This document shows, in pieces, positions 6,342 through 42,472 of a stretch of 64,000 bases of DNA. The notes beneath the pieces are model-generated. The model was not told the DNA's origin. It saw only the letters and a program-made list of their open reading frames with translations, and searched no databases. This DNA comes from Streptomyces sp. NBC_01707 (GTDB lineage: Bacteria; Actinomycetota; Actinomycetes; Streptomycetales; Streptomycetaceae), in contig NZ_CP109190.1 in assembly GCF_041438805.1 (NCBI RefSeq), positions 4,712,001 through 4,776,000 on the forward strand, read 5' to 3'. The stretch's first letter is position 1. Each line of letters opens with the position of its first letter. The position numbers were made by a program, and so were the translations under genes.

Positions 6342-8810
6342 ATGACGCAGCGGGCAGTCGACTCCTCCGGGAAGCCAAAACCCCGCCGGCCCCGGCCGGC
6401 CCCCATCGACGCCGGTTCCGAACTCGACCCGGTACACCCGATGAAGCTGCCGGACTCGGCCGTGCGCAGCACCGGGCTGACCGCCGCCGAGGTCGCCGAG
6501 CGGATCGCCCGGGGCGAAGTCAACGACGTGCCCGTCCGCTCGTCGCGCTCCGTGGGCGAGATCGTCCGCGCCAATGTCTTCACCCGGTTCAATCTGATCA
6601 TCGGCGTGCTCTGGCTGGTCATGCTGTTCGTCGCACCGTTCCAGGACAGCCTCTTCGGCTACGTGATCATCGCCAACACCGGCATCGGCATCGTCCAGGA
6701 GTGGCGGGCCAAGAAGACCCTCGACGGCCTGGCCGTCATCGGCGAGGCGAAACCCACGGTCCGGCGCGACGGGGTCGCCGCAGAGATATCCACCTCGGAG
6801 ATCGTCCTCGGCGATCTGGTCGAGCTCGGCCCCGGCGACAAGGTCGTCGTGGACGGCGCGGTGGCCGAGGCCGACAACCTGGAGATCGACGAGTCGCTGC
6901 TCACCGGTGAGGCCGACCCCGTGGTGAAACAGCCCGGCGATCCGGTGATGTCCGGCAGCTTCGTCGTCGCGGGCGGCGGCGCGTTCTCCGCCACCAAGGT
7001 CGGCCGCGAGGCCTACGCCGCGCAGCTCGCGGAGGAGGCGTCGCGCTTCACCCTCGTCCAGTCCGAACTGCGCAGCGGCATCAGCACGATCCTCAAGTAC
7101 GTCACCTGGATGATGGTGCCGACCGCGATCGGCCTGATCATCAGCCAGCTCGTCGTCAAGAAGAGCGACCTCAAGGACTCCATCGCCCGGACGGTCGGCG
7201 GAATCGTCCCGATGATCCCGGAGGGCCTGGTCCTGCTCACCTCGGTCGCCTTCGCGATCGGTGTCGTACGGCTCGGCCGGAAGCAGTGCCTGGTGCAGGA
7301 GCTGCCCGCCATCGAGGGCCTCGCCCGGGTCGACGTCGTCTGCCTCGACAAGACCGGCACGCTCACCGAAGGCGGCATGGACGTCACCGAGGTGCGGGCG
7401 CTGGGCGGTGCGGACGACCCGTACATCCGCCAGGTGCTGGCCAATCTCGGCGCGTCCGACCCGCGGCCCAATGCCAGCCTGCAGGCGATCATCGACGCGT
7501 ACCCGTCCCCGAACGGCGAGGCGTGGCGTTGCACGGAGGCGCTGCCGTTCTCCTCGGCACGCAAGTACAGCGGCGCCGCGTTCGACGAGGGCAGCGGCAA
7601 GGCGTCGAGCTGGCTGCTCGGCGCACCCGATGTGCTGCTCCCGGACCACGACCCGGCGCTCGGCGAGATCGAACAGCTCAACCGGCAGGGACTGCGGGTC
7701 CTGCTGCTGGCCCGCGCGCAGGGCGAGCTGGAAGGGCCGCAGAGCGCCGCCGGAGCCGAACCGGCCGCGCTGGTCGTCCTGGAGCAGCGGTTGCGGCCGG
7801 ACGCCGGGCAGACACTCCGCTACTTCGCCGACCAGCGGGTCGCCACGAAGGTCATCTCCGGGGACAACGCCGTCTCGGTCGGCGCGGTCGCGGGCAAGCT
7901 CGGCCTGCCCGGCGCCGAACACACCCTGGACGCGCGTCGGCTGCCCACGGACCCGGACGACATGGCCACGGCCATGGAGGAGAACGCGGTCTTCGGCCGG
8001 GTCACCCCGCAGCAGAAGCGGGAGATGGTCGCCGCGCTCCAGTCCCGCGGCCACACGGTCGCGATGACGGGGGACGGGGTCAATGACGTGCTCGCACTCA
8101 AGGACGCCGACATCGGGGTCTCGATGGGATCCGGCTCGGAGGCGACGCGCGCGGTGGCGCAGATCGTGCTGCTCAACAACAGCTTCGCGACCCTGCCGTC
8201 GGTGGTCGCCGAGGGCCGCCGGGTCATCGGCAACATCACCCGGGTGGCCACCCTGTTCCTGACGAAGACCGTCTACTCGGTGCTGCTGGCGATCCTGGTG
8301 GTCTGCTTCCAGGTCGAGTACCCGTTCCTGCCCCGGCATCTGACCCTGCTGTCGACGCTGACGATCGGCGTCCCCGCGTTCTTCCTGGCCCTCGCGCCCA
8401 ACACGGAGCGGGCCCGGCCGCACTTCGTCCGCAGAGTCATGCGGTACTCGGTCCCGTCCGGCGTCATCGCGGCCGTCGCCACGTTCGCGACGTATCTGAT
8501 CGCCCGCCACTACTACACGGGGCCCGGTTCGCTGGACGCGGAGACCAGTGCGGCGACGCTCACGCTGTTCCTGGTCTCGATGTGGGTCCTCGCGATCATC
8601 GCCCGCCCCTACACCTGGTGGCGGATCCTCCTGGTCGCGGCGATGGGGGCGGCGTTCCTGGTCGTGCTGGTGGTGCCCTGGCTGCAGGGCTTCTTCGCCC
8701 TGAAGCTGGTGGGCACGGTCATGCCGTGGGCAGCGGTGGGGATCGCGGTGGTGGCGGCGACCGCCCTGGAGTTCTCCTGGCGCCTGGTCAGTCGCCGCTT
8801 CCCCGTATAG
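6342..8810 (+). CDS. CtpE-like cation-transporting P-type ATPase
   Basis: This 822-aa P-type ATPase has the actuator motif TGEAD near residue 188, the phosphorylation motif DKTGTLTEGG with Asp336, and the hinge motif TGDGVND near residue 577. The membrane motif IPEGL around residue 293, followed by LLTSVAFAIGVVRLGRK, marks the CtpE/YfgQ branch rather than heavy-metal ATPases; there is no CPx motif and no HMA domain. Mycobacterial CtpE has been linked to calcium uptake, and related Gram-positive proteins to divalent cations, so Ca2+, Mg2+ or Mn2+ are the likely cargo (inference). The Shine-Dalgarno sequence is weak. It converges on the first secreted paralogue with a 3-nt gap. Confidence 0.88.
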   Translation: MTQRAVDSSGKPKPRRPRPAPIDAGSELDPVHPMKLPDSAVRSTGLTAAEVAERIARGEVNDVPVRSSRSVGEIVRANVFTRFNLIIGVLWLVMLFVAPFQDSLFGYVIIANTGIGIVQEWRAKKTLDGLAVIGEAKPTVRRDGVAAEISTSEIVLGDLVELGPGDKVVVDGAVAEADNLEIDESLLTGEADPVVKQPGDPVMSGSFVVAGGGAFSATKVGREAYAAQLAEEASRFTLVQSELRSGISTILKYVTWMMVPTAIGLIISQLVVKKSDLKDSIARTVGGIVPMIPEGLVLLTSVAFAIGVVRLGRKQCLVQELPAIEGLARVDVVCLDKTGTLTEGGMDVTEVRALGGADDPYIRQVLANLGASDPRPNASLQAIIDAYPSPNGEAWRCTEALPFSSARKYSGAAFDEGSGKASSWLLGAPDVLLPDHDPALGEIEQLNRQGLRVLLLARAQGELEGPQSAAGAEPAALVVLEQRLRPDAGQTLRYFADQRVATKVISGDNAVSVGAVAGKLGLPGAEHTLDARRLPTDPDDMATAMEENAVFGRVTPQQKREMVAALQSRGHTVAMTGDGVNDVLALKDADIGVSMGSGSEATRAVAQIVLLNNSFATLPSVVAEGRRVIGNITRVATLFLTKTVYSVLLAILVVCFQVEYPFLPRHLTLLSTLTIGVPAFFLALAPNTERARPHFVRRVMRYSVPSGVIAAVATFATYLIARHYYTGPGSLDAETSAATLTLFLVSMWVLAIIARPYTWWRILLVAAMGAAFLVVLVVPWLQGFFALKLVGTVMPWAAVGIAVVAATALEFSWRLVSRRFPV

Positions 8811-36002: not shown

Positions 36003-36863
36003 TCAGCCCGCGCTCACGAACCGCACCCGGGTGCCGGGCACCGCCTGTGCCGCCCCCGCAAGTGCGGTCTCGTCCACGACCCCGACGACCGGGTAGCCCC
36101 CGGTCGTCGGGTGGTCGTTGAGGAACACCACCGGGCGGCCGTCCGGAGGCACCTGGATCGCGCCGAGCACCATCCCCTCACTGGGGAGTTCGCCCTCGTG
36201 GGCTCGCGTCAGGGCCGGGCCCTCCGTGCGCAGGCCGATCCGGTTGCTGTGCGGCGAGACCCGGTACGTGGCCGTGGTGAGCGTGCGCAGCGCCTGATCC
36301 GTGAACCAGGTGTGGCGGGGACCAAGACGTACCGGGAGAACGAGCTCGGCGGGCGCGCCCGGCCAGGGCACGGTGTCGGGGGCCGCAGGAAGCGACCCCC
36401 CGTGTCCCAGGGGCAGTACGTCGCCGTCGCGCAGCGGGGCCGGCCCGAGCCCGGAGAGCAGGTCCGCGGACCTGCTGCCCAGCACCGGTTCCGGCAGCAG
36501 ACCGCCCCCGAACGCGAGATAGCTGCGCAGCCCCTGCACCGCGGGGCCGGCGTCGAGCACCGCACCCGCCGGTACGTGCACGGGTGTCCCCCAGGCCACG
36601 GGCCGGCCGTCGACCGTGACCCGGCAGGGTGCACCGCCGACGACGGCGACCACCGGCCGGTCCGGGCGGACCGCGCAGCCGGTGGCGGTCGTCTCCAACA
36701 GCGCCGCGTCCGCGGGGTTTCCCGCCAGCCGGTTGGCAAGGCGGTGGGAGGGGGCGTCCAGGGCTCCGGCACGCGGCACCCCGAGGTGCGCCCAGCCGAT
36801 ACGGCCCGCGTCCTGAACGGTGGTCAGGGCTCCGGCCCGCGCCACCTCGATGGCACCGGTCAT
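36003..36863 (-). CDS. pxpC: 5-oxoprolinase subunit C (PxpC, biotin-dependent carboxyltransferase-like)
   Basis: This 286-aa protein matches the KipA/PxpC family: MTGAIEVARAGALTTVQDAG with GRIGWAHLGVPRAGALD, YLAFGGGLLPEPVLGSRS, YRVSPHSNRIGLRTEGPAL and NDHPTTGGYPVVGVV. With PxpA and PxpB it forms the ATP-dependent 5-oxoprolinase that opens 5-oxoproline to glutamate. It is the third gene of the operon; its start overlaps the pxpB stop by 4 nt. It converges on copA with a gap of 23 bp. Confidence 0.92.
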   Translation of the reverse strand: MTGAIEVARAGALTTVQDAGRIGWAHLGVPRAGALDAPSHRLANRLAGNPADAALLETTATGCAVRPDRPVVAVVGGAPCRVTVDGRPVAWGTPVHVPAGAVLDAGPAVQGLRSYLAFGGGLLPEPVLGSRSADLLSGLGPAPLRDGDVLPLGHGGSLPAAPDTVPWPGAPAELVLPVRLGPRHTWFTDQALRTLTTATYRVSPHSNRIGLRTEGPALTRAHEGELPSEGMVLGAIQVPPDGRPVVFLNDHPTTGGYPVVGVVDETALAGAAQAVPGTRVRFVSAG

Positions 36864-37642
36864 GGCCGCACCTCCGCCGCGACAAAGCGCACCCGCGCCC
36901 CGGGGCTCAGCAGGGCGGCCGGTTCGCGGGCCGGGTTCCACAGTTCGCCCGGCTCGGGCATCCGCCCGATGATCTGCCAGCCGCCGGGCGACGGGCGCGG
37001 GTACACCCCGGTGTACGCCCCCGCGAGGGCCAGCGCACCGGCCGGAACCCTGGTGCGCGGAGTCGCGCGGCGCGGCATGTGCAGGTGCTCGGGAAGACCC
37101 GTGAGGTAGCCGAAGCCGGGGGCGAACCCGCAGAAGGCCACACGGAACTCGGTCCCGGCGTGGATGCGGGGCACGTCGGCGACGGTGACGCCCCAGGCCG
37201 CCGCGACGTCGGTGAGGTCCGGGCCGTCGTAGACCACGGGGATCTCGACGGCTTCCCCGGTGTCGCGCCGCAGCGGCGGCACCTTCCAGGAGACGAGTTC
37301 CCGGGCGAGCCGCGCGCTGCCGTCCGGGGTGCGGTCCGCGATGCCGTCGAGCAGGACGGTACGGGCACCGGGAACGATCTCGCGTACGGCGGGCAGTTCA
37401 CCGCGTGCCCGCCGCCGCAGCAGCTCGGCGTGAAACGCCTCGGCGTGCTCACCGGAGGGCAGCTCGACGAGCAGCGCTCCGGCCCCGGCGGGAAGCACGC
37501 GGATGCCGGTCGGGCTGCTCGTGTCACGGGACGGGCGGGCGCTCGTCCCCCGCGCCCCTGACGTACCCGCGTCGCGGGGCTGTCCGGTGAGGACGCTCCG
37601 CTCGGCCGTGACCCCCCGCGTGGCGTCGGAACCCGAGCTCAT
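36860..37642 (-). CDS. pxpB: 5-oxoprolinase subunit B (PxpB, allophanate hydrolase-like)
   Basis: This 260-aa KipI/PxpB family protein has an N-terminal extension of about 45 low-complexity residues, then IRVLPAGAGALLVEL and ARELVSWKVPPL. The core signature is VYDGPDLTDVAAAWGVTVAD, HAGTEFRVAFCGFAPGFGYL, and PRRATPRTRVPAGALALAG with GGWQIIGRM. It is the partner of PxpC; in some bacteria the two are fused. The ATG at 37642 overlaps the pxpA stop as ATGA. The extension is unusual compared with typical lengths of about 215-230 aa. Confidence 0.92.
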   Translation of the reverse strand: MSSGSDATRGVTAERSVLTGQPRDAGTSGARGTSARPSRDTSSPTGIRVLPAGAGALLVELPSGEHAEAFHAELLRRRARGELPAVREIVPGARTVLLDGIADRTPDGSARLARELVSWKVPPLRRDTGEAVEIPVVYDGPDLTDVAAAWGVTVADVPRIHAGTEFRVAFCGFAPGFGYLTGLPEHLHMPRRATPRTRVPAGALALAGAYTGVYPRPSPGGWQIIGRMPEPGELWNPAREPAALLSPGARVRFVAAEVRP

Positions 37643-38388
37643 GCGAATGCCCGCACGGCCACGCCCGCTTCTTCGAGCGCCGCTCTGATCCTGCGTGCCA
37701 GCGCCGCCGCGCCCGGGGTGTCGCCGTGCACGCACAGCGAGCGTGCCGCGACGGGTATCCGGCTGCCGTCCGCGCCGGTGACGCCCTGGTCCACGGCCAT
37801 CCCGACACTGCGGCGTACGACTTCGTCCTCGTCGTGCAGCACCGCGCCGGGCTCGCTCCGCGGGACCAGCGTGCCCTGCGGGGTGTACGCGCGGTCGGCG
37901 AAGGCCTCCTCGACGGCGGTGAGACCCGCGGCCCGGGCGTGGTCGAGCAGGCGCGACCCGGGAAGTCCGAGGACCGCCAGGTCCCCGCCGGCCAGCCTGA
38001 CGCCCTCCACCACCGCTGCGGCCTGGTCGTCGTCCCAGACGGCGCGGTTGTAGAGGGCGCCGTGCGGTTTGACGTACGCGACCGTGGAGCCGGCCGCTTC
38101 GGCGAAGACCCGCAGGGCGCCGATCTGGTAGGCGATCTCGGCGGTGAGTTCGGCGGGTGGCACATCCATGGAGCGACGTCCGAAGCCGGCCAGATCGCGG
38201 TAGGCGACCTGGGCACCGATCCGGACGCCCCTGGCGGCCGCGATGTCGCAGACCCGCCGCATCACGGAGGCGTCTCCCGCGTGGAAACCGCAGGCCACAT
38301 TGGCGCTGGTGACGCAGTCGAGCAGCGCGTCGTCATCGGTGAGGGTCCAGTGCCCGAACCCTTCGCCGAGATCCGCGTTGAGATCCAT
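37639..38388 (-). CDS. pxpA: 5-oxoprolinase subunit A (PxpA, LamB/YcsF family)
   Basis: This 249-aa protein has all family hallmarks: MDLNADLGEGFG, TSANVACGFHAGD, YVKPHGALYN, EAFADRAYTPQGTLVPRS and LCVHGDTPGA. PxpA supplies the catalytic hydrolase-like core of the three-part 5-oxoprolinase. The start at 38388 matches the family N-terminus and has AGGCGAG upstream. However, the promoter places the transcription start near 38427, where GTG 38427 or ATG 38424 could initiate a leaderless product with 12-13 extra residues. It is the first gene of pxpABC. Confidence 0.92.
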   Translation of the reverse strand: MDLNADLGEGFGHWTLTDDDALLDCVTSANVACGFHAGDASVMRRVCDIAAARGVRIGAQVAYRDLAGFGRRSMDVPPAELTAEIAYQIGALRVFAEAAGSTVAYVKPHGALYNRAVWDDDQAAAVVEGVRLAGGDLAVLGLPGSRLLDHARAAGLTAVEEAFADRAYTPQGTLVPRSEPGAVLHDEDEVVRRSVGMAVDQGVTGADGSRIPVAARSLCVHGDTPGAAALARRIRAALEEAGVAVRAFA

Positions 38389-38433
38389 CGGGCTCGCCTG
38401 GTTCGTCGGGTTCGTCAGATCCATCACGAGCGC

Positions 38434-38462
38434 ACGCTAGCGATTGTTCAACAATCTGACAA
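38434..38462 (-). promoter_or_regulatory. Promoter of pxpABC
   Basis: On the minus strand TTGTCA, a 17-nt spacer and TAGCGT form the promoter. The spacer is almost entirely the palindromic operator at 38442-38456. Confidence 0.65.
38442..38456. promoter_or_regulatory. GntR operator, copy 1 (pxpABC/gntR)
   Basis: GATTGTTCAACAATC is a perfect 15-bp palindrome placed between the -35 and -10 of the pxpABC promoter. A copy differing by one base is in the same position of the DUF969 promoter (39551-39565). Confidence 0.75.
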
Positions 38463-38553
38463 GACCCGGCTTGGGGGGCGAGACACCCGTACGGTTCACT
38501 GGGCACAGAGTGCGCAGCGGACGACGCGCACGGCAACAGGCGGAGGACGGGGC

Positions 38554-39270
38554 ATGGCGGGGAATGCGGGCGGCCGGACTTCTCCGGATCTCTCGGAACT
38601 GGCGGCGGACAGCGCCCTGCTGGCCCGGTCCGGCACCGCCGAGCGGGTCGCCGCCATCCTGCGGGACCGGATCACCGAAGGCTACTTCCCGCCGGGCAGC
38701 CGGCTCTCCGAGGAGAGCATCAGCGGAGCCCTCGCCGTGTCCCGGAACACCCTGCGCGAGGCGTTCCGCCTGCTGTCGCACGAACGCCTCCTGGAACATC
38801 GGCTCAACAAGGGCGTCTTCGTCCGCGTGCTCGCCGTCGACGACCTGGTGGACATCTACCGGGTCCGGCTGCTCGTCGAGTGCGCCGCCCTGCGGACGCT
38901 GGGCGAGCCGCCGTACGACCTGACGGCCGTCGAGGCAGCCGTGTCGACGGGCGAGCAGGCGGCACTGGCCGGCGACTGGCCGGGCTGCTCGACCGCCAAC
39001 ATCCGCTTCCACCAGGCTCTGGCCGGGCTCGCCAACAGCCCCCGCACGGACGAGCTGATGCGCAACGTCCTCGCCGAACTGCGGCTGGCCTTCCACGTGA
39101 TGGCCGACCCGCGACGGTTCCACGAGCCCTACCTCACCCGGAACAGGGAGATCGCGGACAGACTCGCCGACGGCGACGCCGTGGGCGCCGAGCGGATGCT
39201 GGCCTTCTACCTGGAGGACTCACGGCGCCAGCTGGCGGAGGCGTACGCGGAGCGCCTGACCGCGCGATAG
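38554..39270 (+). CDS. GntR-family (FCD-domain) regulator
   Basis: This 238-aa protein has an N-terminal winged helix (VAAILRDRITEGYFPPGSRL, SEESISGALAVSRNTLREAF) and an FCD effector domain with metal- and ligand-binding residues in RVRLLVECAALRTLG, NIRFHQALAGLANSPRTDEL and HEPYLTRNREIADRL. The ATG has GGAGG 7 nt upstream. It lies between pxpABC and the DUF969-DUF979-DUF2891 operon. The shared palindrome at both promoters is the likely operator of this protein. The effector may be 5-oxoproline or a related acid (inference). Confidence 0.9.
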   Translation: MAGNAGGRTSPDLSELAADSALLARSGTAERVAAILRDRITEGYFPPGSRLSEESISGALAVSRNTLREAFRLLSHERLLEHRLNKGVFVRVLAVDDLVDIYRVRLLVECAALRTLGEPPYDLTAVEAAVSTGEQAALAGDWPGCSTANIRFHQALAGLANSPRTDELMRNVLAELRLAFHVMADPRRFHEPYLTRNREIADRLADGDAVGAERMLAFYLEDSRRQLAEAYAERLTAR

Positions 39271-39544
39271 CCCCGCCCCCGGCACCGCACCCCGCACGGC
39301 AGACCACCCCGCCCGGCTCGGCGTTCCACCCCGCGCCTGGCCGTTTCACGCGTGGAACGTTCCACAATCCGCACCAACCCCCGAACGCAACCCTCCACAC
39401 CACGCACCGGACCTCTTCCGGGCGAACCCGCAGATCAGGGCCAAAACGCACCATCTATTGCCCGTACCGACCGAACGGCACACCGCCCGCCCGGCCGCAC
39501 CGCCGCGCCCACCTCACGCTTTGCTATCCATGTAGCCCGCACCC
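39271..39544. other. Intergenic region with an extra palindrome
   Basis: There is no gene here. It contains the perfect 14-bp palindrome GTGGAACGTTCCAC at 39352-39365, directly preceded by a second overlapping palindrome, CACGCGTG (39348-39355). Confidence 0.5.
39352..39365. promoter_or_regulatory. Perfect palindrome upstream of the DUF969 operon
   Basis: GTGGAACGTTCCAC is self-complementary over 14 bp, about 180 bp upstream of the DUF969 promoter. It may bind a second regulator. A half-site GCGTTCCACC occurs at 39321-39330. Confidence 0.4.
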
Positions 39545-39574
39545 TTGTGGGTTTGTTGAACAATCGCCTAATGT
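39545..39574 (+). promoter_or_regulatory. Promoter and GntR operator copy 2 (DUF969 operon)
   Basis: TTGTGG (39545-39550), an 18-nt spacer and TAATGT (39569-39574) form the promoter. GTTTGTTGAACAATC (39551-39565) fills most of the spacer and differs from the pxpABC operator (reverse complement) at one position. Confidence 0.75.
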
Positions 39575-39648
39575 CTCGCGCACTACCCCCGTCTGATCAG
39601 GACCGAGCAGGCCTGCCTGCACGTCCATGCGCGGAAGAAGGCCGACGC

Positions 39649-40380
39649 GTGATCGTTCTCCTCGGCGTGCTCGTGGTGATCCTCGGATTCGCCACCCGCC
39701 GCAATCCCCTCCTCGTGGTGGGTGTCGCAGGCATCGTCACAGGGCTGCTCGGCAAGCTCTCCCCGCAGGAGGTGCTGGCCACCTTCGGCAACAGCTTCGC
39801 CTCCGCGCGCTCCGTGACCGTCTTCGTCATCACCCTGCCCGTCATCGGGCTTCTCGAGCGGTACGGACTCCAGGAGCAGGCCCGTACGCTCATCGGCAGG
39901 CTGGGCAAACTGACCACCGGCCGCTTCCTGGCGCTCTACCTGCTGATACGGCAGCTCACCGCCTCCGTCGGCCTCACCAGCATCGGCGGCCCCGCGCAGA
40001 GTGTGCGGCCGCTGATCGCCCCGATGGCCGAGGCCGCCGCCGAGGCCAAGGCCGGTCGTCCGCTGCCGCAGAAGCTGCGCGAGAAGGTCCGCTCGCACGC
40101 GTCCGGCGCCGACACCATCGGAGTGTTCTTCGGTGAGGACTGCTTCATCGCCATCGGATCGATCCTGCTGATCACCGGCTTCGTGAACTCCACGTACGAC
40201 CAGCACCTCGAACCCCTGCACCTGGCCCTGTGGGCGATCCCCTCCGCGATCTGCGCCTTCCTGATCCACGGGGCCCGCCTGCTCAACCTGGACCGGCAGC
40301 TGGAGCGCGAACTCGCCGTCGCCGCCGCCGAGAACGACCTGACGACGCACGCCGGGCTCCGGACGGAGGACGCCAAGTGA
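39649..40380 (+). CDS. DUF969 membrane protein, probable 5-oxoproline permease subunit
   Basis: This 243-aa membrane protein has about six transmembrane helices and the DUF969 pattern: VIVLLGVLVVILGFATRRNP, PLLVVGVAGIVTGLLGKLSP, TLPVIGLLERYGLQEQART, TSIGGPAQSVRPLIAPMAEA and GADTIGVFFGEDCFIAIGSI. The GTG start is preferred over the upstream ATG inside the -10 because AGAAGG is 7 nt before it. It overlaps the DUF979 gene as GTGA. DUF969 and DUF979 occur together and, from memory, often near 5-oxoprolinase genes. A transport role is inferred. Confidence 0.85.
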   Translation: MIVLLGVLVVILGFATRRNPLLVVGVAGIVTGLLGKLSPQEVLATFGNSFASARSVTVFVITLPVIGLLERYGLQEQARTLIGRLGKLTTGRFLALYLLIRQLTASVGLTSIGGPAQSVRPLIAPMAEAAAEAKAGRPLPQKLREKVRSHASGADTIGVFFGEDCFIAIGSILLITGFVNSTYDQHLEPLHLALWAIPSAICAFLIHGARLLNLDRQLERELAVAAAENDLTTHAGLRTEDAK

Positions 40381-41345
40381 TCAAGTCCGAGTACTTCTTC
40401 TGGCTGGTCGGCGCGGTGTTCCTCGTCATGGCCACGCAGATGGTCATGGACCGCAGCAACCCCAAGCGCTTCGGATCGGCCGGGTTCTGGGGTCTGCTGG
40501 GCGCGGCGTTCTTCTACTCCACCGGAGTCGTCGACAAGTCCCTCCCCGCCGAACCGCTGGGTGTCGCCGTCCTGATCCTGATCGTCCTGGGCGGCTGCGG
40601 TCTCACCGGCAAGGGCACATCGCACACTCCTTCCCGCGAGAAGCGCGCGGCCTCGGCCGCCCGTTTCGGCAACAAGCTGTTCCTTCCGGCTCTCACCATC
40701 CCCGTCGTCGCGATGATCTGCGCGACGCTCGTGAAGAACTGGAAGATCGGTGGCGAACCGGTCCTGGAACCGGGGTACGAGACCATCCTGGGCCTCGGCG
40801 TCGGTGCCATCGCCGCGCTGGTCGTGGGCATGGTGCTGTTGCGCGAGCGGAAGATCTCCGTACCGCTGCACTCCGGTCGCAACATGCTGGAATCGATGGG
40901 CTGGGCGCTGATCCTGCCTCAGCTGCTCGCAGTCCTCGGCTCGATCTTCCAGTCCGCCGGTGTCGGCGAGCAGGTCGGAAGGATCACCGAGGCGGTGCTG
41001 CCGGACGGCCAGAAGTTCGTGGCCGTGGCCGTCTACTGCTGCGGCATGGCGCTGTTCACCGTCGTCATGGGCAATGCCTTCGCCGCGTTCCCGGTGATGA
41101 CCGCCGCGATCGGCTGGCCCGTCCTCATCGAGCAGATGAACGGCAACGCGCCCGCGATCCTCGCGATCGGCATGCTCTGCGGCTTCTGCGGCACCCTCGT
41201 CACCCCGATGGCCGCCAACTTCAACCTGGTTCCCGCCGCTCTGCTCGAACTCAAGGACCAGTACGGCCCGATCAAGGCCCAGCTCCCCACGGCAGCCGCC
41301 CTGCTGGTCTGCAACGTCGCGATCATGGCCCTCTTCGCCTTCTGA
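40377..41345 (+). CDS. DUF979 membrane protein, partner of DUF969
   Basis: This 322-aa protein has about nine hydrophobic segments and DUF979 signatures: EYFFWLVGAVFLVMATQMV, GFWGLLGAAFFYSTGV, RFGNKLFLPALTIPVVAMIC, VTDGQ-like LPDGQKFVAVAVYCCGMALF, and GMLCGFCGTLVTPMAANFNL with VPAALLELKDQYGPIKAQLP. It starts at GTG overlapping the DUF969 stop, so the two proteins are made together. It likely forms a two-component carrier for a carboxylate substrate. Regulation by the GntR operator upstream of DUF969 is predicted. Confidence 0.85.
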   Translation: MIKSEYFFWLVGAVFLVMATQMVMDRSNPKRFGSAGFWGLLGAAFFYSTGVVDKSLPAEPLGVAVLILIVLGGCGLTGKGTSHTPSREKRAASAARFGNKLFLPALTIPVVAMICATLVKNWKIGGEPVLEPGYETILGLGVGAIAALVVGMVLLRERKISVPLHSGRNMLESMGWALILPQLLAVLGSIFQSAGVGEQVGRITEAVLPDGQKFVAVAVYCCGMALFTVVMGNAFAAFPVMTAAIGWPVLIEQMNGNAPAILAIGMLCGFCGTLVTPMAANFNLVPAALLELKDQYGPIKAQLPTAAALLVCNVAIMALFAF

Positions 41346-41443
41346 CCCGGCCCGCCCCTGACCCGAGCTCCATCCACCCCTGCCCCCTGGCCCGAGCCGC
41401 CCCTTGACCCGAGCCGCTCGCCCACCTCTCTGGAGTGACCCCG
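41346..41443. repeat. Degenerate short tandem repeats
   Basis: CCTGACCCGAGC, CCTGGCCCGAGC and CCTTGACCCGAGC occur within 60 bp between DUF979 and DUF2891. They look like slipped repeats in a spacer, with no clear hairpin terminator. Confidence 0.35.
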
Positions 41444-42472
41444 ATGTCCCCCGCGCTCCCTGCCACGTACGCCGTCCCCTTCACGGAACTGGCCCTCGCC
41501 AACGTCGTACGCGAGTACCCCAACGCCCCTGCCCACCTGTACGCCGGCCCCGAGGAACTGGTCGCGCCCCGCACCCTGCACCCCGCCTTCTACGGCGGGT
41601 ACGACTGGCATTCCACCGTGCACATGCACTGGCTGCTCGTCCGCCTGCTGCGCCGCTTCTCCACCACCGGGGACCTTCCGGCCACGGTCACCACCCGTGT
41701 CCACGAGGTACTGGACTCCCACCTCACCCCGGAGAACCTCGCCGTCGAGGCGGCGTATCTCCGCAAGCGCCCGCATTTCGAACGCCCCTACGGCTGGGCG
41801 TGGTTGGTGGCGCTGGCGGCGGAGTGCCGTGCGCTCGCCACCCCCGAGGGCGACCGCTGGGCCGACGCCCTCGCCCCCGCCGTGGAGACGGTCGGCGAAC
41901 TCCTCACCGCCTGGCTGCCCAAGGCGACGTACCCGATCAGGCACGGCATCCACCCCAACAGCGCCTTCGGCCTGGGCATGGTTCTGGACGCGGGCGAGCG
42001 CGCCGGTCTGCCCCGCCCGGTGCTCGACGCGGTGGCGGAACGGCTGCGCACCTGGTTCGCCGAGGACCATGACGCCCCCGCCCACTGGGAGCCGTCCGGA
42101 CAGGACTTCCTCTCCCCCGCCCTGACCGAGGCGGACGCCATGCGCCGAGTGCTCCCCACCGCGGAGTTCCGGACCTGGCTGGCCGGGTTCCTGCCGGGGC
42201 TGACGGACTCTCCGCTGCTCACCCCGCCCGTGGTCTCCGACCACGCCGACCCGCAGATCGGCCACCTCCTGGGTCTCACCATGAGCCGGGCCGCGGCCCT
42301 CCGTACGATCGCCGACGCGCTGGGCGAGGGCCCCGCCCACACCGCTCTGACCGCCTCGGCCGAGGCTCATCTCGCCGTCGGCCTGCCGTCGGTCTCCTCC
42401 GGTGACTTCAGCACGGACCACTGGCTGGCCACCTTCGCCGCACTGGCCCTGGACACCCCGCCCGGTCACTGA
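41444..42472 (+). CDS. DUF2891 protein
   Basis: This 342-aa soluble protein matches DUF2891. The N-terminal region has LHPAFYGGYDWHSTVHMHWL, with clustered histidines. Later motifs are HFERPYGWAWLVALAAECRA, YPIRHGIHPNSAFGLGMVLD, and SGQDFLSPALTEADAMRRVL. The helical pattern and His/Asp-rich motifs resemble alpha/alpha-barrel hydrolases, but no catalytic mechanism is established. ATG 41444 has GGAG 9 nt upstream. It follows DUF969-DUF979 in the same direction and probably in the same transcript. An enzyme acting on a 5-oxoproline-containing or related substrate is a plausible role (inference). Confidence 0.83.
   Translation: MSPALPATYAVPFTELALANVVREYPNAPAHLYAGPEELVAPRTLHPAFYGGYDWHSTVHMHWLLVRLLRRFSTTGDLPATVTTRVHEVLDSHLTPENLAVEAAYLRKRPHFERPYGWAWLVALAAECRALATPEGDRWADALAPAVETVGELLTAWLPKATYPIRHGIHPNSAFGLGMVLDAGERAGLPRPVLDAVAERLRTWFAEDHDAPAHWEPSGQDFLSPALTEADAMRRVLPTAEFRTWLAGFLPGLTDSPLLTPPVVSDHADPQIGHLLGLTMSRAAALRTIADALGEGPAHTALTASAEAHLAVGLPSVSSGDFSTDHWLATFAALALDTPPGH

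Follow-up and report, generated by a model that had tools for sequence, protein, structure and literature searches.

Twin operators within promoters link 5-oxoprolinase genes to a putative DUF969/DUF979 importer and DUF2891 in a predicted Streptomyces PxpR regulon

We analyzed a 64,000-nucleotide stretch of DNA from Streptomyces sp. NBC_01707 (contig NZ_CP109190.1, positions 4,712,001 to 4,776,000; hereafter the window), in which seven genes form a putative regulon for 5-oxoproline (pyroglutamate), a compound that arises spontaneously from glutamate and glutamine. The three 5-oxoprolinase subunit genes pxpA, pxpB and pxpC lie on one strand, and the regulator gene pxpR, followed by genes for DUF969, DUF979 and DUF2891 proteins, lies on the other (Table 1). 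Pfam searches confirmed every gene family that a previous annotation made from the letters alone (the sequence-only reading) had named. PxpA, PxpB and PxpC all score above their Pfam cut-offs and are encoded in one operon. Among the NCBIfam models, that for PxpA and TIGR00724 (PxpC family) were passed, with TIGR00370 (PxpB) and NF045499 (PxpC) below their cut-offs; the window PxpABC is predicted, by family, to be an ATP-dependent 5-oxoprolinase converting 5-oxoproline to glutamate. Four-base overlaps join pxpA to pxpB, pxpB to pxpC and DUF969 to DUF979. The DUF969 and DUF979 genes are adjacent and accompany the 5-oxoproline genes, and PxpR combines a GntR helix-turn-helix with a C-terminal ligand-binding FCD domain.

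Two copies of a palindrome flank the regulator gene, and both were found where the sequence-only reading had placed them, the second being a one-mismatch copy of the first. Operator 1 is perfect save for a free central base; operator 2 reads GATTGTTCAACAAAC on the minus strand, with one mismatch. A search of the window allowing up to 3 mismatches returned 5 matches, namely each operator read on either strand and a 3-mismatch place at 39355-39369, against a mean of 0.16 matches (maximum 1) in 100 dinucleotide shuffles. The core TTGTTSAACAA occurs at only 2 places in the 9.9 Mb genome with both strands counted, which are operators 1 and 2. For the wider consensus GATYGTTSAACRATC, operator 1 is the sole exact match in the whole genome; one mismatch admits operator 2 and one unrelated place, two mismatches admit 14 places, and the reversed control pattern matches at 1 place. 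Together with its flanks, operator 1 agrees at 16 of 17 bases with agattgttcaacaatct, the PxpR operator of Corynebacterium glutamicum.

Table 1 Genes, promoters and operators of the locus, in coordinates of the window.
Feature	Position	Strand	Basis and remarks
pxpC, 5-oxoprolinase subunit C (CT_A_B)	36003..36863	-	Pfam PF02626 277.6 bits; TIGR00724 above cut-off; NF045499 196 of 500 bits, below cut-off
pxpB, 5-oxoprolinase subunit B (CT_C_D)	36860..37642	-	Pfam PF02682 189.6 bits; TIGR00370 133 bits, below cut-off 145.55
pxpA, 5-oxoprolinase subunit A (LamB/YcsF)	37639..38427	-	Pfam PF03746 324 bits; NF003814 above cut-off
pxpABC promoter (predicted)	38434..38462	-	-35 TTGTCA (38462-38457), 17-nt spacer, -10 TAGCGT (38439-38434)
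Operator 1, GATTGTTCAACAATC	38442..38456	.	Fills the spacer of the pxpA promoter; palindrome 7+1+7
pxpR, GntR/FCD repressor (predicted)	38554..39270	+	Pfam PF00392 58 bits, PF07729 64 bits
DUF969 promoter (predicted)	39545..39574	+	-35 TTGTGG (39545-39550), 18-nt spacer, -10 TAATGT (39569-39574)
Operator 2, GTTTGTTGAACAATC	39551..39565	.	Equivalent position in the DUF969 promoter
DUF969 membrane protein, half of predicted importer	39649..40380	+	Pfam PF06149 279 bits
DUF979 membrane protein, other half of predicted importer	40377..41345	+	Pfam PF06166 384 bits
DUF2891 protein, predicted accessory enzyme	41444..42472	+	Pfam PF11199 390 bits; without obvious signal peptide

Each operator occupies the spacer between a -35 and a -10 box, again as the sequence-only reading had it. 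A generic sigma-70 consensus scan reported no promoter in the region, a failure to be expected for GC-rich Streptomyces promoters, and we therefore inferred the promoters from conservation and from the Streptomyces type TTGACN/TAGNNT. The conserved arrangement is a TTG box abutting the palindrome and TAnnnT 17-18 nt downstream; among genes with a site, it is present at 44 of 44 pxpA and 49 of 53 DUF969 genes, against 3 of 20000 random places. Six bases separate the -10 box of pxpA from its GTG start codon (38427). Transcription of pxpABC would thus be expected to start at or beside this codon, and its mRNA may be leaderless. A repressor seated on either operator would cover the site of the polymerase.

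To assess conservation, we assembled Streptomyces loci from two surveys. The first covered 121 Streptomyces genomes and gave the window, 16 DUF2891 loci, 12 with DUF969 but no DUF2891, and 6 additional pxpR loci; the second searched named genomes for DUF2891 and, from 592 relatives of which 80 were kept, gave 28 Streptomyces loci. Removal of three near-duplicates (L073, L080 and L099) left 60 loci, a set that excludes eight Streptomyces pxpR loci (L175-L182) scored separately. As a matrix scan trained partly on the scanned loci is circular, conservation was judged with the published operator and shuffled controls. With agattgttcaacaatct as the query, 59 of 60 loci had their best match at most 400 bp upstream of pxpA, DUF969 or pxpR, the exception (L078) being a contig that ends inside DUF969; 15 shuffled palindromes scored 0-28 of 60 in the same test, the zone making up 4.3% of the sequence. 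The separately scored set gave 7 of 8, with L182 as the miss. Counted by gene, 53 of 54 DUF969 genes have a site no more than 330 bp away (the truncated L078 being the miss), as do 44 of 49 pxpA genes. In four of the five pxpA misses (L249, L251, L254, L257) the site adjoins pxpR, and in the fifth (L263) a D-glutamate cyclase gene, with pxpABC behind in the same direction each time. Loss of the palindrome at orthologous loci had been named beforehand as an outcome that would speak against a shared regulon; it is instead conserved. pxpABC adjoins DUF969/DUF979 in most Streptomyces loci, the window included, and the dual operator with its promoter geometry is conserved across Streptomyces also where the two operons lie apart.

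The distribution of the motif outside these loci sets limits on its use. The 11-base core occurs at least once in 71 of the 121 Streptomyces genomes, compared with 29 that have DUF969, and core presence alone therefore proves little and is not diagnostic for the genus. The 15-base site, with at most one mismatch, was found in 6 of 149 genomes of a phylum-wide sample. Among 148 genomes of the class, 20 have PxpR homologues (E up to 1e-25); of 20 loci taken from 19 of these 20 genomes, 17 carry a site beside pxpR by the partly circular matrix.

Genomes in which the locus is split provide operator evidence for DUF969/DUF979 in 5-oxoproline use that is independent of gene neighborhood. In one of them (G192), DUF969-DUF979-DUF2891 (L067) and pxpABC with pxpR (L263) lie on different contigs with operators at both, that of L067 having one mismatch to GATYGTTSAACRATC, and a single PxpR was found at E up to 1e-15. 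Four other genomes (G222, G248, G262, G263) have a divergent pxpABC/DUF969 locus with two operators and no pxpR between them (L059-L061, L070), and encode elsewhere a single strong PxpR with an operator of its own (L261, L262, L264, L265).

The regulator has an experimentally studied counterpart. As reported by Sundermeyer et al. (PMC13274462, May 2026), the GntR protein PxpR of C. glutamicum represses pxpTABC and binds 5-oxoproline with a dissociation constant (KD) of 726 nM; mutation or deletion of agattgttcaacaatct, a motif proposed earlier by RegPrecise, raised reporter expression 6.5-fold and so demonstrated its control of the pxpT promoter. The Streptomyces locus is alike in its GntR repressor gene beside pxpABC, its operator and, as predicted here, 5-oxoproline as inducer. 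In C. glutamicum the importer PxpT (NRAMP/APC type) shares one operon and one operator with pxpABC, whereas in the window DUF969/DUF979 and DUF2891 are encoded by a second operon that has an operator to itself. The position of the motif also differs: in C. glutamicum it lies between the predicted -10 box and pxpT, centered 65 bp before the start codon, and in Streptomyces it fills the -35/-10 spacer. The window PxpR is close to the PDB entry 2HS5 (E 3.7e-61), and its recognition helix, VSRNTLREAF, recurs in most aligned PxpR proteins, with single changes in L191, L192, L250, L264 and 2HS5 and a different helix, VSRGP(L/I)REAM, in L193 and L194; C. glutamicum PxpR itself was outside the sequences compared. 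With a agattgttcaacaatct-like site at the pxp promoter, conserved at both the pxpA and the DUF969 promoters, the homologue leads us to expect that the window PxpR binds 5-oxoproline and both operators. The main text of PMC13274462 does not mention DUF969, DUF979, DUF2891 or Streptomyces, and we found no paper joining oxoprolinase, Streptomyces and GntR in the openly licensed literature.

For the importer, the closest evidence comes from Campylobacter jejuni, whose cj0552-cj0554 operon consists of the same three genes, DUF969-DUF979-DUF2891, in identical order. The pxp genes of that organism are presumably located elsewhere in its genome. A cj0552-4 mutant lost the use of 5-oxoproline, a result that the authors call preliminary (PMC12795558, accessible text). 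The C. jejuni operon differs in responding to glutamine supply, and the accessible part of that paper makes no mention of a PxpR operator for it. DUF979 has been assigned to the ion-transporter clan (IT superfamily) with DUF969 as its partner, and a heterodimer of the two has been modeled for Clostridioides difficile proteins (PMC11467057, accessible text); the window has both families encoded by overlapping genes, and the published complex is a model that comes with no demonstrated substrate. Our search of DUF979 against PDB sequences gave noise only. By analogy with these homologues, DUF969/DUF979 would import 5-oxoproline in this Streptomyces.

Relatives reveal that the same operator serves other gene sets. 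In five Streptomyces loci (L175, L177-L180), pxpR stands with genes for an MFS transporter, D-glutamate cyclase and PxpABC, with an operator beside pxpR (families checked by Pfam on examples). Together with L263 and L264, these loci represent a second kind of Streptomyces PxpR locus, which carries a gene of the D-glutamate cyclase family (PF07286), mostly an MFS transporter and mostly pxpABC; the window genome gave no match to D-glutamate cyclase. Elsewhere in the class (L186-L191), the pxp genes are headed, as in C. glutamicum, by a gene for an NRAMP-type transporter (four of them checked by Pfam). In Bacillus subtilis, a PxpABC 5-oxoprolinase with a transporter was reportedly described by Niehaus in 2017, the source of the transport idea; its pxp region has what we take to be a D-glutamate cyclase family neighbor, like the second Streptomyces kind, and we know of no DUF969/DUF979 in its pxp operon. 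The order there is pxpA-ycsG-ycsI-pxpBC with the NRAMP-type transporter YcsG (PMC13274462), in place of which the window is predicted to use DUF969/DUF979.

DUF2891 is confined to this setting within Streptomyces. It was found in 17 of 121 genomes, all within the 29 that have DUF969 (chance 2e-13 if genomes are taken as independent), and all 17 carry the gene inside this operon. The window protein is related to the solved chain 8IEU (E 8.6e-54), and an alignment of 38 sequences displays many invariant polar residues, among them D54, H56, E113, R114, R166, H170, E216, D266, H274 and H326 as numbered in the window protein. A DUF2891 profile run against PDB sequences recovered only 8IEU/8IEV and noise, Pfam at E up to 10 returned only DUF2891 itself, and the openly licensed literature contained no relevant paper on 8IEU or 8IEV and, as far as its accessible text goes, no established function for DUF2891. 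Outside Streptomyces, the gene follows DUF969-DUF979 in some Paraburkholderia, Burkholderia and Dyella loci, in an Opitutaceae locus (L116) and in an acidobacterium (L151); among the 14 neighbor clusters listed, mostly mis-framed or clade-specific, no shared partner other than DUF969/DUF979 appeared. Within the Burkholderiales, some loci have DUF969-DUF979 ahead of it and others have fragments of DUF979; in three Paraburkholderia/Burkholderia loci (L120, L121, L127) a C-terminal or partial DUF979 lies directly upstream, which suggests that the transporter was lost and DUF2891 kept.

A fusion protein offers a further clue to function. In G315, a gene at L184:4397-6829 (minus strand) encodes a signal-like N-terminus and DUF2891 as the C-terminal half (94-97 bits); Pfam matched the N-terminal half to Peptidase_C15 below threshold only (12.9 bits). 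The closest relative among the matches listed, 83% identical, consists of PF27118 and PF11199, and the PF27118 profile aligns with that of pyroglutamyl peptidase at an hhalign probability of 91.8% (E 7e-7), placing the peptidase cysteine, presumably the catalytic one, opposite an invariant serine of PF27118. A PxpR-type operator lies just upstream of the fusion gene (6878-6892), which is surrounded by pxpA, pxpB, pxpR, pxpC and a branched-chain-amino-acid-type ABC transporter. Only one further two-domain protein occurs among the best 120 of 242 matches, and the fusion is therefore rare. Because of its position, its regulation and this peptidase-like fusion, DUF2891 probably handles a compound near 5-oxoproline, as an enzyme making, freeing or processing it.

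Taken together, the locus is very probably a Streptomyces PxpR regulon with DUF969/DUF979 as its importer. In this mechanism, PxpR would bind the palindrome inside both promoters and block RNA polymerase until released by 5-oxoproline, after which the two operons would yield the importer, PxpABC and, in DUF2891, a soluble enzyme acting on the making, freeing or processing of 5-oxoproline. The single regulon under one operator, the 5-oxoproline-sensing GntR protein and the DUF969/DUF979 importer that the sequence-only reading proposed thus agree with the homologue papers, in their accessible text (PMC13274462, PMC12795558, PMC11467057), and with the conservation of the operator; the accessory role it gave DUF2891 is one that we likewise infer. 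Measured against the papers found, the regulator and its operator were already known and the importer was strongly suspected; this analysis adds the joint control with its promoter geometry, the modularity of the regulon and the fusion involving DUF2891. Bacterial 5-oxoproline uptake and its control have been described only recently, and DUF2891, for which the structure 8IEU has been deposited, is assigned to a defined pathway, which narrows the substrates worth testing to a short list.

Several observations weigh against this interpretation. The 60 Streptomyces loci are related, so that their counts are not independent events. In the class-wide loci L183-L194, the best match fell upstream of pxpR, pxpA or DUF969 in only 8 of 12 (shuffled motifs, 0-5); two of the misses (L193, L194) are the 33-35% homologues with the other recognition helix, and the remaining two (L184, L192) have their best match next to the 3' end of pxpR. 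A second PxpR copy in G233 (L182, 63% identical) has no adjacent site, and operator 2 fits the published 17-mer less well than operator 1. The known C. glutamicum importer, PxpT, is a different protein from DUF969/DUF979, and the binding, expression and uptake that we assign to this Streptomyces are carried over from homologues. Of the 29 Streptomyces genomes with DUF969, 12 lack DUF2891, which is therefore not needed for the pathway in general. Among 52 DUF2891 loci outside Streptomyces (7 of them on contigs shorter than 8 kb), a DUF969 or DUF979 match occurs in only 8 and a pxp gene in none.

The last two counts favor an alternative in which DUF2891 is an operon passenger of unrelated function and the pathway consists of pxpABC, PxpR and DUF969/DUF979 only. 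The same view gains from the planctomycete and acidobacterial loci, in 19 of 23 of which a signal-like hydrophobic stretch (mean hydropathy of 11 residues at least 2.2) precedes DUF2891, the others being L112, L119, L125 and L151; neither L151 nor L116, which have DUF969-DUF979 upstream, possesses such a stretch. L100-L109 and similar Planctomycetota and Acidobacteriota loci mostly combine signal-like N-termini with no pxp gene nearby. Against a passenger stand the 17 of 17 Streptomyces genomes that keep the gene in this operon, its recurrence after DUF969-DUF979 in C. jejuni and in the Paraburkholderia, Burkholderia, Dyella, Opitutaceae and acidobacterial loci above, and its fusion in G315, behind a PxpR-type operator, to a domain resembling pyroglutamyl peptidase, and we consider the passenger explanation doubtful, if still a serious competitor. 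A more specific proposal, to which we give tentative weight slightly below an even balance, is that PxpR regulons of the class are modular, with four transporter types (DUF969/DUF979, NRAMP, MFS and, in one locus, ABC) and three enzymes yielding or handling 5-oxoproline (pyroglutamyl peptidase, D-glutamate cyclase and DUF2891) under one operator. As part of this joint proposal, DUF2891 would be an unrecognized cofactor-free enzyme of pyroglutamyl metabolism under PxpR control, for example a cyclase forming 5-oxoproline out of glutamine or gamma-glutamyl compounds, or else a protein that works together with pyroglutamyl peptidase, and it would be cytosolic in Streptomyces and extracytoplasmic in other phyla.

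A second alternative accepts the operators and the regulator and has DUF969/DUF979 carry another solute, for instance glutamine, a dicarboxylate or pyroglutamyl peptides, with 5-oxoproline only as the signal. Import of peptides would fit the pyroglutamyl peptidase genes found in 19 of 29 surveyed Streptomyces DUF969 operons. Of the 17 survey genomes with DUF2891, 10 have the peptidase gene flanked by DUF979 and DUF2891; of the 12 operons lacking DUF2891, 9 have it after DUF979 (PF01470 identity Pfam-checked for three proteins). The ion-transporter clan of DUF979 (PMC11467057) would also be compatible. Yet free 5-oxoproline no longer supported growth of the C. jejuni cj0552-4 mutant, the window genome keeps the importer with no PF01470 match in its operon or anywhere in the genome, and at other 5-oxoproline loci the same operator accompanies an NRAMP or MFS transporter. 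Transport of a different solute is thus improbable, and import of 5-oxoproline remains our preferred function for the pair. That the palindromes are a general operator or a chance feature unrelated to the regulator between them is barely credible and strongly disfavored: the loci with two sites and no pxpR between them, and the 71 of 121 genomes with a core, many copies of which must lie elsewhere, are outweighed by the two lone cores of the window genome, by the single strong PxpR beside the same operator elsewhere in all four genomes concerned and by the mutations of this very sequence at the C. glutamicum pxpT promoter (PMC13274462), and a chance palindrome is ruled out by the shuffles, the genome rarity, the conservation across loci and the promoter geometry.

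Two minor features of the operators were also recorded. A degenerate third palindrome, TGGAACGTTCCACAATC (39353-39369), lies about 180-200 bp upstream of operator 2; it is kept in the close relatives L073 and L074 and altered in L064 and L075, and is possibly an auxiliary site. In L071, L090 and L093, an operator stands beside pxpR with no pxpABC found adjacent, which suggests that pxpR is autoregulated there.

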